The position numbers and the translations under genes are program-made. Source: Geobacter sp. DSM 9736 (GTDB lineage Bacteria > Desulfobacterota > Desulfuromonadia > Geobacterales > Geobacteraceae). From it: 64,000 bases of DNA. Positions 1 to 8,671 of this stretch are shown here, piece by piece; within the stretch, counting starts at the first letter, position 1; every line of letters starts with the position of its first letter. The notes under the pieces were generated by a model, which saw only the letters and a list, made by a program, of their open reading frames with translations, was not told where the DNA came from and did no database searches. The DNA lies in NCBI RefSeq assembly GCF_900187405.1, contig NZ_LT896716.1, positions 682,001 through 746,000 on the forward strand, written 5' to 3'.

Positions 1-610
1 AGGATTTTTTGGTGGGGGCGTTGCCCCCTTGCCCCCACTTCATTTCTTTTGATTGCCCAAAAGAAACGAAGCAAAGAAAAGGGCACCCCTGCGACCTGGC
101 CGCTTACGCGGTACCCTCGCTGCGAGCACCGACGGCGCGACGATCAGATTCGCTTCGCTCAGGAGATCGTCGAAAACCCGCCGCCGCTGTTCTCACTCGG
201 CCATGCCGAAGGGGGAACTGCTCAAAAAGCTAAAGCTTCAAGCCCTTAGGCCGCGTTCTGCGGCCTCCCCCATTACAGGTTGCTCAAAAACAGTCAGATC
301 GTCGCACCCGCAGAAAACCCCCGCGGAGGCGTAGCAGCGCTACGCCGCACAAGGTGGCTTTCGAGGACGGCGGTGAGATGGCTGTTTTTCAGCAACCTAT
401 GCATTTCGCCGAGTGAGGAGGCCGGGCGGGAAGGGGGAGGCTGCCCAGGAGCGGAGCGACTTTGCAGAATCCTCCGCCCGGCTGACGAGGGAGGGAATCC
501 CGAAGGGACGGAATGTTCCGGGGCGGATCTTTCTTTGCGTACTTTCTTTGGAGCCAAGCCAAAGAAAGTGCGTGGGGTACGGGGCGACGCCCCGAAGAGC
601 TCCAAAAGAG
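1..610. repeat. Composite inverted-repeat element, non-coding
   Basis: No credible gene lies in the first 727 bases. The two ends of this stretch are imperfect inverted copies of each other. The left end has a GGGGGC-GTT-GCCCCC hairpin, then a perfect 9-bp hairpin at 43-51/58-66, then GCAAAGAAAA. Read on the other strand, the right end has GGGGC-GTC-GCCCC, an 11-bp hairpin at 541-551/559-569, then GCAAAGAAAG. Short ORFs exist in most frames but are low-complexity translations of the repeat. The pattern resembles widespread CAAAGAAA-type intergenic repeats of proteobacteria that are often mis-annotated as small proteins. The left boundary may lie before the window. No transposase is present. 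Confidence 0.6.
278..397. repeat. Nested inverted repeat with central hairpin
   Basis: Within the larger element, about 28 bases at 278-305 (GGTTGCTCAAAAACAG...) are an imperfect inverted copy of 370-397 (...CTGTTTTTCAGCAACC). At the centre is a perfect 8-bp hairpin, GGCGTAGC at 328-335 and GCTACGCC at 339-346 with a 3-base loop. The compact symmetrical structure suggests a separate miniature repeat inserted in the outer one. Function is unknown. Confidence 0.55.
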
Positions 611-727: not shown

Positions 728-1351
728 CTACTCGAAAAAATAGCGGACGCCGAATGTCATCGACAGGCTGGAAGGATCGAAATTACCGATCTTGAACCCG
801 CGATAATCCCTTATATCCGCATCGGGCGCGACAACTGCTTTTAACTGCCCCGTTACGGCCAGCTGCTTCCGAATGAAATAGTCCACCCCGCCCGATGCAT
901 GCACACCGGCGACGGTGTCCACGTTCCCGCTGAAGCCCGCGACTGGAGAGAAATCATTGATAAGGATGTCCAGACCTGCGCCGGCGTAGGGAACGAGCTT
1001 CTTCACCGGCACGTTGACGAAACGGTACTGGGCTCCCAGGGATATGTTGGTGGTAGCGAAATCACCCCCTTCGAATCCGAACCCGTCATGGGCACTGAAT
1101 TCCGAATGGGTAATATCAAGCTCCGCGGCCCAGTTCCTGTCGATACCGTAAATGAATCCGCCACCTCCGATAAACCCCGTATCGGTATCGGAGTTGCGAC
1201 GATACGGAGCATCTGTGAACTCGCTGTCCGCGGGGAGAAGGAACCCGATCCGTCCGGTGACGCCGAATCTCCCCTGAGTGGTATCCGCGGCGGCATTTGC
1301 GGCCACGGAGAGGGCAAGGGCGATACATGCACATATGGCAATTCTTTTCAT
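728..1351 (-). CDS. Small outer-membrane beta-barrel protein
   Basis: A 207-residue exported protein. The N-terminus is a clear signal peptide (MKRIAICACIALALSVAANA, cleavage after ANA). The mature part alternates polar and hydrophobic residues, is rich in Gly and aromatics, and ends in ...GVRYFFE, as expected for a membrane beta-barrel of about eight strands (OmpW/OmpX/OmpA-barrel-like superfamily). The start is chosen at 1351 because GGAGG sits five bases upstream; the ATG six codons earlier has no such site. The gene stands alone, with a terminator hairpin behind it and a GEMM-I riboswitch in front of it. Expression is therefore probably set by a cyclic dinucleotide. Barrel class is inferred from pattern, and the ligand or transported solute is unknown. 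Confidence 0.78.
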   Translation of the reverse strand: MKRIAICACIALALSVAANAAADTTQGRFGVTGRIGFLLPADSEFTDAPYRRNSDTDTGFIGGGGFIYGIDRNWAAELDITHSEFSAHDGFGFEGGDFATTNISLGAQYRFVNVPVKKLVPYAGAGLDILINDFSPVAGFSGNVDTVAGVHASGGVDYFIRKQLAVTGQLKAVVAPDADIRDYRGFKIGNFDPSSLSMTFGVRYFFE

Positions 1352-1452: not shown

Positions 1453-1556
1453 AATAAAAAAAGCCGGGGGCCGAAATGTGTGTATTTCGGCAACCCGGCT
1501 GTCTCGTTGAGACCCTGTAGGCTTTCCGCCCCATCCTCACGGATGGTTTAGTATTA
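1453..1556 (-). promoter_or_regulatory. GEMM-I cyclic-dinucleotide riboswitch with terminator
   Basis: On the minus strand the leader contains the conserved GEMM-I blocks in order: AAACCATCC, a GTGA tetraloop, GGATGGGGCGGAAAGCC, then a P3-type hairpin (GGGTCTC/GAGAC) and GCCGGGTTGCCGAA. The 3' end overlaps an intrinsic terminator: AGCCGGG (1462-1468) pairs with CCCGGCT (1494-1500), an inner stem pairs 1470-1477 with 1484-1491, and a U-run follows on the transcript (1453-1462). It lies about 100 bases upstream of the beta-barrel gene start. GEMM-I RNAs sense c-di-GMP; a Geobacter-rich subclass senses 3',3'-cGAMP. I cannot assign the ligand by eye. Confidence 0.92.
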
Positions 1557-1742
1557 TCGTGTACCAATTAAGCTCTTTTTTCAGGTGGCGCATCATAGCC
1601 CAACGCGAAGCGGAAATCAACCCTTCATCGGAGAGTTGGCCATCTAGTGGTCCCCTGCGCCTCCACACCTTTATTTCCACGATAAAGTCTGATATGGTGT
1701 GCGCCGTTCAACGCAAGACAGAAATTCGAAGGAGAAGAGTCC

Positions 1743-6161: not shown

Positions 6162-7727
6162 TTAGCTGATGAATCCCGGCATGAGGGCTCGGATGAATGC
6201 GTTTTTGAACAGCTGGCCCACTATCTGCCATACACTGGTCTTCGGATCGTTCAGGTGACCCGAAATATCAGCTTTGGTGGCTACCTCGTTCCTGGACCTG
6301 TTCTCCAGGAGAGTAGCAACCCCCGCCACCATCATTTCGTACAGCTGGCTCCCGACATTCTTTCCCTTGTCCATACGGCGATCATATACCTGCATATCCC
6401 TGAAAAACGGCTTTATGTACCCCGAGATTCGCTGATTCCTTATGTGGAGCTCCGAGTAGAAAGAAAAAAGGCCGGCGGAGACGTCGAAGTCCCCATAGGT
6501 CCGCAGCATGTTGTTCATGCCGGTCAGCTGAGCCCCCTCTATCTTTACTTGCAGATCGAGCTCGATCCCTCGTTTTCCGGGACGAAAGCTGGCTGTGGCA
6601 GTAGTGGTGCCGGTCCCCATGAATCTCCCCCGCAGGCTGCTCCTGGCCGGTTCGCGGGATAACTGGTTGGAGAGATTCGAGAGCAGGAGGTTTGCATCAC
6701 TCACATAGAGATGGTAAGGGTGACTGGCAGCGCGGTTCTTTACCCCGATGGTGCATCCGGCGAGCCGGATTTTATCCACCTGAAGGCGAATTTCGGCATT
6801 ATTGCTCAACCTGCCGGCTGTCTCTCGGACCGCTGCGGCGCGTTTTTTCTCGGCAGCGGCCGTGCGGGAGGTATGGATGTAATCGATTCTCATGCCCCTT
6901 ATCGTCATATCCTCCAGGTGGGCGCTCTTGAATGTAGGGGCATACTCTATTTCCCCGGATGTCTGGAGAACTCCTCCGGTGATCGCAAGATTTGACCGGG
7001 CGATGATCGGCTTGATCAGATCGATCGGCACCTTGTCCAGCTTGAAGCGGGCCTTGAGGCCCGGATGCGGCTCCGCGAAGAAGTTGGCGACGCCGTCGAG
7101 GGTGCCGCGGCCTGTTCCGAAGACGAAGGTGTCCAGATGGAACGAGGATGGGTAGACTTTTTCAGGTGCGCTTATATTGAGGATGTTGGTAGCCTTGAGG
7201 TTCAGGCTGCTCAGGTGAAGGGGGCGCATCGTGTCTTCATCCAGGTAGATGACTTCGCCGTTACTGATGCTGAGGAGATCGACCTTGAGAGGGTAGATAG
7301 CCAGCACCGCCTGCTGCCATCCCCGTTCTTTGATCGGGACCGCATCGGCTGATTCGGTGCGCAGCTGCTTCAGGTTAATGCTCACCTTCGGTCGGTCCAG
7401 ACGAAACTCACCCACGAGCCTGCGGGAGAGAAGTGCGCGCCAGTGGACGCTTGCGCGAAGAAAAGGGAATTGTGCGATCGGATGATCCGGATCTGCTTCC
7501 TGGCATACCGTGAGACCTTTCAGCGTTACCGATAGGCTCATCAGGTTTACCCGTAATTCCGGCAGCCTTACGGAATATCCTTTGAGGCTGCGGTTCATCT
7601 CCTTCTCCATGTAGCTGCGGATGGGCTCGTTGAGCAAATGCGATGCGAAGATGAGGGCGAGGATCGATATGGCCATGGCACCCGCTCCCCAGCGGATGCC
7701 TCGGGGAAGTTGTCGTACGGCGATCAT
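6162..7727 (-). CDS. AsmA-like/DUF748 membrane-anchored protein
   Basis: A 521-residue protein with one N-terminal transmembrane segment (about residues 15-33, AMAISILALIFASHLL) and a long periplasmic part built of repeating amphipathic strands such as VRLPELRVNLMSLSVTLKGL. The segment MYVPEIR-like ending ...RISGYIKPFFRDMQVYD and the final KTSVWQIVGQLFKNAFIRAL match the DUF748 end. This family belongs to the AsmA/TamB-like group of envelope proteins linked to lipid or outer-membrane homeostasis; no enzyme activity is expected. The gene is alone and follows a GEMM-I riboswitch by about 70 bases, which ties envelope remodelling to a cyclic-dinucleotide signal. The ribosome site is weak (GGGAG at longer than usual distance), so the start is uncertain by a few codons. 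Confidence 0.72.
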   Translation of the reverse strand: MIAVRQLPRGIRWGAGAMAISILALIFASHLLNEPIRSYMEKEMNRSLKGYSVRLPELRVNLMSLSVTLKGLTVCQEADPDHPIAQFPFLRASVHWRALLSRRLVGEFRLDRPKVSINLKQLRTESADAVPIKERGWQQAVLAIYPLKVDLLSISNGEVIYLDEDTMRPLHLSSLNLKATNILNISAPEKVYPSSFHLDTFVFGTGRGTLDGVANFFAEPHPGLKARFKLDKVPIDLIKPIIARSNLAITGGVLQTSGEIEYAPTFKSAHLEDMTIRGMRIDYIHTSRTAAAEKKRAAAVRETAGRLSNNAEIRLQVDKIRLAGCTIGVKNRAASHPYHLYVSDANLLLSNLSNQLSREPARSSLRGRFMGTGTTTATASFRPGKRGIELDLQVKIEGAQLTGMNNMLRTYGDFDVSAGLFSFYSELHIRNQRISGYIKPFFRDMQVYDRRMDKGKNVGSQLYEMMVAGVATLLENRSRNEVATKADISGHLNDPKTSVWQIVGQLFKNAFIRALMPGFIS

Positions 7728-7797
7728 CGTGATTGATGCGCTCCCTGGTTCTGGACCAATGGTGGCCGCTTGCTGAGGTGTATTTCCTGCGCAGATA

Positions 7798-7915
7798 AAG
7801 AAAAGCCGGGTGCCCCATATCGTTTGTGATAGTTCGGCAACCCGGCTGTCTTCGTGAGACCCTGTAGGCTTTCCGCCCCACCCTCGCGGGTGGTTTAGTA
7901 TTGTCGCGTATGCAC
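7798..7915 (-). promoter_or_regulatory. Second GEMM-I cyclic-dinucleotide riboswitch
   Basis: The minus strand repeats the same conserved order as the first copy: AAACCACCC, GCGA loop, GGGTGGGGCGGAAAGCC, TACAGGGTCTC and its partner, then GCCGGGTTGCCGAA. An expression-platform hairpin pairs 7804-7811 (AGCCGGGT) with 7840-7847 and is followed on the transcript by a U-rich run. It precedes the DUF748 gene. The aptamer core is nearly identical to the one at 1453-1556, so the same ligand is likely at both sites. Whether that is c-di-GMP or cGAMP cannot be decided here. Confidence 0.9.
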
Positions 7916-8164
7916 CCTGATGTTTCGGATCAGGAAATATTTACCGTAAATCCGGACGGGAAGTCAAACTGTTTGCCGCAGGAGAAACACTGCCGGACCT
8001 TCCCTTCTGCAGTGACTGCCGACAGCCTCTTCGCAGCAGCTGATGACCGATGATGACGGCAACGTTGCTTGCAAAAGTTTGGCGTCGGATTAAGCTTTTT
8101 GAAGAATAGCTTATCAAGCCCGGCTTCTGCGGCACTTCCACCCCCGCGGGACAAGGAGGCTGTG

Positions 8165-8671
8165 ATGGCTTTACACGAGGGGAAGGAACCTGTCGATGTG
8201 GATCTCCTGGACAGCCTTGCAAGTGGGCACCGCTCGGTCAGGAGGATTATCGACGAGCTGAAGAGCAGCGCTGCCAACGACAAGGAGTACCTTTTCGGCA
8301 AGCTGCAGGCCGCCTACCTGCGCTGTGCAGAGCTGGAGGAGAAGAATTTCTACCGGAAGATGGAGGAATACCGGGAGGTGGCGGGGCTAATATATGATGC
8401 TATGGCTGATCATGAAGTAATCAGGGAACTTTTGCAGCAGCTGGAGCGCCTTGATCCCGACTCGGGACGATGGCGGACAAAGTTGGAATTGCTCGATGAG
8501 ACTTTCGAAGCTCATGCGGAGCGGGAAGAACATCAGGTTTTTCCTGTTGCTGCGCGGCTTTTGCCCGAGCGTGCCTTGCACCTTATGGTGGAACAGCTTC
8601 GGGAGGAGCAGGAAGAAGGAGCGCAAACCCGTCGTCACCGCCACCCGGTCGGGCCGGGAAGGCGCACGTGA
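8165..8671 (+). CDS. Hemerythrin-like HHE-domain protein
   Basis: A 168-residue, all-helical protein with spaced His/Glu in the order expected of an HHE cation-binding domain: GHRSVRRIIDELKS near residue 20, EEYREVAGLIYDAMADHEVI in the middle, and AHAEREEHQVFPVAARLLPE near residue 118-137. Such four-helix bundles bind a di-iron or other metal site and are implicated in oxygen or NO sensing and iron-sulfur repair. The tail is basic and probably disordered. Start 8165 has a perfect AAGGAGG site; the frame is open upstream but lacks one. It stands alone and is followed by a symmetrical hairpin. Whether iron is really bound is not provable from sequence. Confidence 0.75.
   Translation: MALHEGKEPVDVDLLDSLASGHRSVRRIIDELKSSAANDKEYLFGKLQAAYLRCAELEEKNFYRKMEEYREVAGLIYDAMADHEVIRELLQQLERLDPDSGRWRTKLELLDETFEAHAEREEHQVFPVAARLLPERALHLMVEQLREEQEEGAQTRRHRHPVGPGRRT

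Follow-up and report, generated by a model that had tools for sequence, protein, structure and literature searches.

The element in front of a DUF748 gene of Geobacter sp. DSM 9736 is very probably a GEMM-Ib transcriptional ON switch for 3',3'-cGAMP that belongs to a predicted nine-copy regulon, and the likeness among the copies is attributed to constraint and not to recent copying. It lies within the 64,000 nucleotides analysed here, termed the window, together with a second copy of the same type about 6 kb away; the two are referred to as the DUF748 copy and the beta-barrel copy, after the genes behind them. What has been computed is the family match, the identity of the selecting base, the sharing of a strand by aptamer and terminator, the number of copies, and the presence of two Hypr-type cyclase genes. 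The switch itself is of a known and ordinary kind among Geobacter-like bacteria, and the DUF748 gene looks like a new target.

A GEMM-I Riboswitch in Front of a DUF748 Gene

When the window was scanned with cmscan, the DUF748 copy matched the Rfam family RF01051 (c-di-GMP-I, i.e., GEMM-I) with 46.2 bits at a gathering score of 35 bits, the E value being 7.3e-6 in the window and 1.0e-7 in the whole genome. A search conducted as for the own genome yielded an RF01051 match in none of 14 control genomes. Moreover, our own covariance model R1, the training set of which included the sequence of the DUF748 copy, gave this copy 94.8 bits in a search of the DUF748 homologue loci, where the next match reached 16.2 bits. 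The element is hence confirmed as a genuine GEMM-I riboswitch. The first-pass annotation had placed it at 7798-7915, a span comprising the aptamer and nearly all of the terminator, and its description as a second, near-identical copy holds, as 69 of the 77 aptamer positions are the same in both window copies. Likewise, the terminator loops are unlike each other, as it had stated.

Table 1. Features in the window, all on the reverse strand, with the basis of each assignment.
Feature	Positions	Strand	Basis
GEMM-I aptamer, A-type (GEMM-Ib, predicted cGAMP class), DUF748 copy	7833..7909	-	Rfam RF01051, R1 model, pocket check
Ligand-selecting base A (Vc2 position 20; A14 in the Geobacter crystal construct, as mapped here)	7899	-	Pocket check
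Intrinsic terminator stem-loop, DUF748 copy	7804..7847	-	Fold z and pair list
Terminator U-tract (UUUUCUUU), DUF748 copy	7796..7803	-	Sequence
Putatively regulated gene, 521 aa, PF05359 DUF748 ('AsmA-like')	6162..7727	-	Pfam match
Weak candidate promoter (TTGACT 7967-7962, 18 nt, TAAATA 7943-7938)	7938..7967	-	By eye; rejected by consensus scan
First copy, GEMM-I aptamer, A-type, before an outer-membrane beta-barrel gene	1486..1562	-	Rfam, 48.5 bits
Terminator with its U-tract, first copy	1455..1500	-	
PF13505 outer-membrane beta-barrel gene, downstream of the first copy	728..1351	-	Pfam match

The ATG of the DUF748 gene is located 105 nt past the aptamer. Its product matches PF05359 (DUF748) with 106.9 bits at a cut-off of 50, and a structure model built from three sequences has a mean pLDDT of 34.7. 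None of the AsmA models matched the product, even at E 10. The earlier designation 'AsmA-like gene' is therefore retained as a DUF748 assignment; as to AsmA, the label stems from the DUF748 family name and from the clan of this family. The consensus scan of positions 7700-8200 revealed no promoter-like site. The terminator scan does not list the terminator of the DUF748 copy, whose loop exceeds the limit of the scan; the one site given by the scan is on the opposite strand. In addition, window positions 276-399 represent a dispersed repeat with 88% identity to part of the locus of the own copy L005; for its segment 301-397, a counterpart with 74% identity lies in the locus L026.

The Selecting Base and the Predicted Ligand

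According to a figure legend in PMC6456294, an A at position 20 goes along with cGAMP in Geobacter, and its change to G with c-di-GMP. The DUF748 copy bears an A at this site. Moreover, it contains all ten bases given as ligand contacts in the crystal structure (G8, A9, A11, A12, A14, C15, G40, A41, A42 and C75; numbering as in PMC6274999), plus the junction base G74, where the mapping to the crystal construct is our own, with an offset of 3 for the first nine contacts and of 2 for G74 and C75.

The own genome (3.96 Mb, one contig) harbors 13 RF01051 matches, 12 of them above the family cut-off. Nine are sharply defined A-type copies, which are set apart by their core (TACT, CGGAAAG) from the four other GEMM-I copies (L001, L002, L011, L013). 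Searching 77 loci with R1 yielded 135 matches, with A as the selecting base in 88, G in 45 and C in 2; of the 88 A-bearing matches, 87 scored 78-98 bits, as against 31-59 bits for the 47 matches with G or C. The single A-bearing exception (L116:1764-1846 in G044:C205) reached 48.8 bits by R1 and is otherwise a G-type-looking aptamer; its A possibly reflects a separate switch of ligand or an error in the alignment. Upon merging of rows with the same context, 76 A-bearing copies were retained, or 75 without L116. Each of the mapped pocket bases is present in at least 73 of these 75 copies; as all 76 were chosen by the selecting A, agreement at that very base is no evidence. Based on the selecting A, the pocket bases and the A-type core, both window copies are predicted to be GEMM-Ib (3',3'-cGAMP) sensors.

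Terminator and Proposed Switching

The 5' arm of the terminator (7847-7836) is the 3' strand of the aptamer of the DUF748 copy itself. By our mapping, the C that pairs with the ligand corresponds to window position 7837 inside this arm, where it pairs with 7813. The minimum-energy fold of aptamer plus terminator (7790-7915) is far more stable than that of shuffled sequences (z -4.0). The aptamer alone does not stand out from shuffles (z -0.83), and its fold of lowest energy is not that of the aptamer. Keeping the aptamer fold costs 5.5 kcal/mol in a transcript of 77 nt, 2.5 in one of 99 nt and 17.6 when the terminator is complete. The beta-barrel copy behaves alike, with 4.9, 0.4 and 14.7 kcal/mol at the matching lengths. 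Thus, given the overlapping strands and the predicted energies, terminator and aptamer are predicted to be mutually exclusive in the DUF748 copy, and both window copies follow one terminator design. Among the 76 distinct A-bearing copies, at least five of the seven bases of the motif AGCCGGG are paired with the strand behind in the minimum-energy fold in 74, and 73 combine this pairing with a U-rich tail (at least five U in the next nine bases); the exact motif is absent from L143 and L116, which were left unscored in this test.

At low levels of cGAMP, the 3' strand of the aptamer (AGCCGGGU.GCC) would pair with the following strand to form the terminator, and transcription would halt about 70 nt short of the DUF748 gene. 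Upon binding of cGAMP, the 3' strand would be kept within the aptamer, no terminator would form, and the DUF748 gene would be transcribed. For the pilM switch of G. metallireducens, an ON switch, it was likewise reported that aptamer and terminator exclude each other and that the terminator captures the ligand-pairing C (PMC9262584). In G. sulfurreducens, deletion of the cGAMP synthase is reported to have lowered the transcription of all GEMM-Ib-controlled genes (PMC6456294). From this drop, together with the pilM design, we infer the same cGAMP response for the DUF748 gene; ligand binding, the direction of the switch and the expression of the gene are likewise inferred.

The DUF748 copy thus has its closest counterparts in the GEMM-Ib (c-AMP-GMP) riboswitches described for Geobacter, i.e., those of pgcA (GSU1761) and pilM (Gmet_0970). 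As far as these are described in the sources consulted, it has in common with them the aptamer type, the selecting A, the contact bases, a terminator built from the aptamer 3' strand, the predicted ON direction and targets in the envelope or in electron transfer. In contrast, the gene behind it encodes a DUF748 protein, and its ligand and direction are predictions from sequence. Among the titles and abstract starts searched, no paper pairing DUF748 with GEMM-Ib was found; with this gene, a DUF748 envelope gene joins the predicted cGAMP regulon in one lineage.

Could the element respond to c-di-GMP, as the name of its Rfam family implies, or be decayed or silent? Either reading is very unlikely. 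Rfam classes the element under c-di-GMP-I, and the DUF748 copy is like other members of RF01051 in scoring above the gathering score. Moreover, one published GEMM-I member of the Geobacter group, the omcST switch, was reported to respond to both messengers (PMC6456294), so that strict selectivity is unreadable from a single base. However, the DUF748 copy has the A at position 20, and both the A-type core and the gap in R1 scores separate it from the other GEMM-I copies. As the fold serves c-di-GMP and cGAMP sensors in the literature and this copy has the cGAMP base, the family name is misleading here. Decay or silence would agree with the consensus scan, which recognised no promoter, and with the 29 other genomes examined, where no such site precedes the homologue of the gene, but pocket, helices, terminator and U-tract of the DUF748 copy are all intact, and its six deviations from the family consensus are each shared by between 4 and 29 of the 76 copies (the DUF748 copy included). 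The first-pass annotation had named differing ligands or a dead copy as grounds against its reading; neither shows in the sequence, where selecting base and switching parts are alike in the two copies.

Likeness of the Copies

Comparison of the two window copies gives 8 differences over 77 bases. A distance of at most 8 is found in 22 of the 36 pairs formed by the nine own A-type copies, the window pair included, and in 1878 of the 2850 pairs (65.9%) formed by the 76 copies of the family sample, or in 1878 of 2775 (67.7%) without L116, the sample being biased to copies near the two queries, with which many of its loci were obtained by blastn. Within the own genome, the nearest relatives of the DUF748 copy are L007 and L008 (5 differences each), and that of the beta-barrel copy is L007 (3 differences). 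In the sample as a whole, the aptamers nearest to the DUF748 copy are L135, L141 and L147 from other genomes (3-4 differences); L135 and L147 precede genes that share 47% and 40% identity, respectively, with the one controlled by the own copy L005. The beta-barrel copy is closest to L158 (1 difference) of another genus, which precedes a gene with CxxCH haem motifs, as judged by eye. The likeness of the aptamers is hence independent of the gene and points to constraint. In the 75 copies, 47 of 77 columns are invariant (32 with L116 included). Taken together, the near-identity of the A-type copies reflects constraint on aptamer and terminator rather than recent copying, and near-identical switches of the GEMM-Ib kind are to be read in this sense.

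The proposal that the DUF748 copy was recently duplicated from the first copy, at a distance of 6 kb, is highly improbable. The two belong to one class, share the 69 identical positions and are located nearby, and the DUF748 site is probably young, as judged from the 29 other homologue loci without a switch. However, the window copies are not each other's nearest neighbours. When the DUF748 copy was used with its flanks in a blastn search, the top match in the own genome was L004 (90%, 150 bits), followed by L008, L007 and L010, and the beta-barrel copy was absent among the matches listed. Moreover, the own-genome matches listed for either window copy cover aptamer and terminator and leave the flanks unmatched. 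The beta-barrel copy aligns with the switch upstream of its gene's homologue in G047, a member of another genus (83% over 164 nt, the genes being 78% identical). By our own arithmetic, 0.07 pairs this close are expected at random for seven sites in 3.96 Mb, so that the spacing of the window copies is only mildly unusual. A recent tandem or segmental duplication was rejected on the grounds of the pairwise distances, the blastn searches with flanks and the homologous loci. What stands of the first-pass reading is that two envelope genes about 6 kb apart are under one type of control, given that both copies are A-type, have one terminator design and that the pocket of the DUF748 copy is intact; the recent duplication of the element lacks support, as the window pair is no closer than most pairs and the matches listed leave out the flanks.

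Age of the Two Sites

For the beta-barrel gene, 30 loci were fetched, one from the own genome and 29 from other genomes, and R1 detected an A-type switch upstream in the own and in seven other loci. A further homologue with an A-type switch is L167 in G033. With counterparts in other genera, the beta-barrel site looks the older of the two.

For the DUF748 gene, R1 revealed no switch at any of the 29 homologue loci from 29 other genomes, nor at the own paralogue L035 or the two named contigs L066 and L067; an Rfam scan of 18 of the 29 loci (L037-L054) and of L035 likewise gave no switch. Upstream sequence amounted to 319 bases for L058 and 913 bases for L066, and a second homologue in G025 was left out. 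In this comparison, the genus group consists of the own genome, and a close DUF748 homologue is missing from 18 of the remaining 47 genomes of the family, G047 among them. In the DUF748 gene tree, the own gene, the paralogue L035 and several rows of the family form long branches, and the root is unsure. Given the absence of a switch from all 29 homologue loci, the DUF748 site appears to be a lineage-specific recruitment, though loss elsewhere may account for the pattern. The paralogue L035 (G000:C1:2427627-2429177) is 47% identical to the DUF748 gene product and has no switch in the 1500 bases upstream.

Predicted Regulon and Candidate cGAMP Synthases

The DUF748 copy is one member of the nine-copy predicted cGAMP regulon of this genome. 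As judged by eye, its A-type targets resemble published ones of Geobacter, including a lipoprotein transpeptidase, cytochromes and an fn3-type gene. Two same-type cGAMP tandems were observed, at G000:C1:232085-232353 (L008/L009) and at 986948-987233 (L010/L012). The former precedes a gene for a c-type cytochrome-like lipoprotein (CxxCH motifs by eye), and the latter a gene that by eye encodes a LysM/L,D-transpeptidase lipoprotein and resembles the GSU0181-0183 target described in PMC6456294.

The own genome contains 20 GGDEF matches. At the site taken for the Hypr position of the GGDEF fold, two of them have Ser and 18 have Asp. The first Ser-bearing match (L028, G000:C1:761957-762427) ends in GGDEY, appears by eye to belong to a receiver-GGDEF protein and is located 16 kb past the right end of the window. 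The second (L033, G000:C1:1191533-1191802) has GGDDF and lies in what by eye is a HAMP protein. The descriptions of the G. sulfurreducens cGAMP synthases GacA and GSU1937 in PMC8835794 are like those of L028 and L033. Both are likely cGAMP synthases, i.e., candidate Hypr-type enzymes.

Stacked cGAMP- and c-di-GMP-Type Aptamers

At G000:C1:1681420-1681730 (L179:5421-5720), the A-type copy L007 ends 83 nt before the G-type copy L001. The product of the gene behind the stack is a secreted protein with an fn3-like part, which scores below the Pfam cut-off, and a dockerin, which scores above it. A second model, R2, was built from the nine downstream aptamers of nine initial stacks and searched in 141 genomes of the order, 25 of which gave matches. 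In 13 of the 30 R2 loci fetched, from 12 genomes, one to three A-type copies are present upstream of the R2 match. The genomes are G000, G005, G006, G007, G008, G036, G041 (with two sites), G045, G046, G118, G122 and G124, and the loci, besides L179, are L213-L220, L222, L224, L233 and L240. Nine of the 13 served in training R2; those of G118, G122 and G124 and the second site of G041 are new. At the other 17 R2 loci, R1 found no A-type match, with the contig of L238 starting 500 bases upstream. In G006, G007 and G008, a farther A-type copy is located more than 1.2 kb upstream, before another fn3-like gene.

In the four stacks scanned with Rfam (G000, G118, G122, G124), both elements were called in every case, the downstream aptamer being assigned to RF01051 in G000, G118 and G122 and to the related RF03167 in G124. 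According to blastp, the gene behind the stack is fn3-like in 11 of the 13 loci; that behind the second G041 stack is weakly similar to fn3-like genes, and the G124 gene gave no match. In G046 (L178:6714-6805 in C90), three A-type switches are followed by a GEMM-I relative with the selecting base C and a degenerate 5' part, which may represent a dead second stage or an aptamer with changed ligand.

Behind the G-type aptamer lies a stretch complementary to the Shine-Dalgarno site. The energies were calculated for 13 leaders, 11 stacked and two without an A-type copy; as G122 was left out, 12 are informative. In these, the energy of the Shine-Dalgarno duplex lies between -9.9 and -17.5 kcal/mol, and eight leaders surpass mononucleotide shuffles by 2 standard deviations. 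For the alternative helix, in which the P1 3' strand pairs with the loop that follows, the values lie between -9.8 and -18.7 kcal/mol, and only 5 of the 12 surpass shuffles by the same margin, which renders the OFF direction of the c-di-GMP stage a guess. When aptamer and leader are folded together, the Shine-Dalgarno hairpin is by our reading retained in six of nine leaders, the exceptions being G041, G045 and G046. In such a stacked leader, cGAMP would permit transcription, and c-di-GMP would hide the ribosome-binding site and block translation, resulting in a gate of the kind 'cGAMP and not c-di-GMP'. This gate would fit the published opposition of the two messengers, as reported for G. sulfurreducens (PMC6456294). 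The arguments are evenly balanced as to whether the cGAMP cassette is a block that is stacked with c-di-GMP sensing on one mRNA, with the DUF748 copy as a single-input recruitment of it. If so, stacked leaders would enable cells to weigh two competing messengers on one RNA, at the levels of transcription and translation, and the way in which Geobacter separates two nearly identical signals would become directly testable.

Several components of this arrangement have precedents. The conserved sequence was seen in many copies in 2009 (PMC2700814), G. sulfurreducens is known to carry GEMM-I switches in tandem (PMC6456294), and GEMM control of an fn3 gene has been published (PMC10599522, PMC13194489, PMC2996986). 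A review on tandem riboswitches gives two-ligand pairs, the table consulted containing no pair of c-AMP-GMP and c-di-GMP-I (PMC9481103), and in a 2025 survey all c-di-GMP classes are grouped under a single ligand family (PMC12452182). The mixed cGAMP/c-di-GMP stack is not described in the passages of PMC8835794 and PMC12285248 or in the titles and abstract starts searched. It may nevertheless have been described before, as the literature searched lacked the founding papers Kellenberger 2015 and Nelson 2015.

Finally, two loci, L114 (G014:C18) and L126 (G025:C30), each contain an array in which about 1.2 kb holds four aptamers of the c-di-GMP type.
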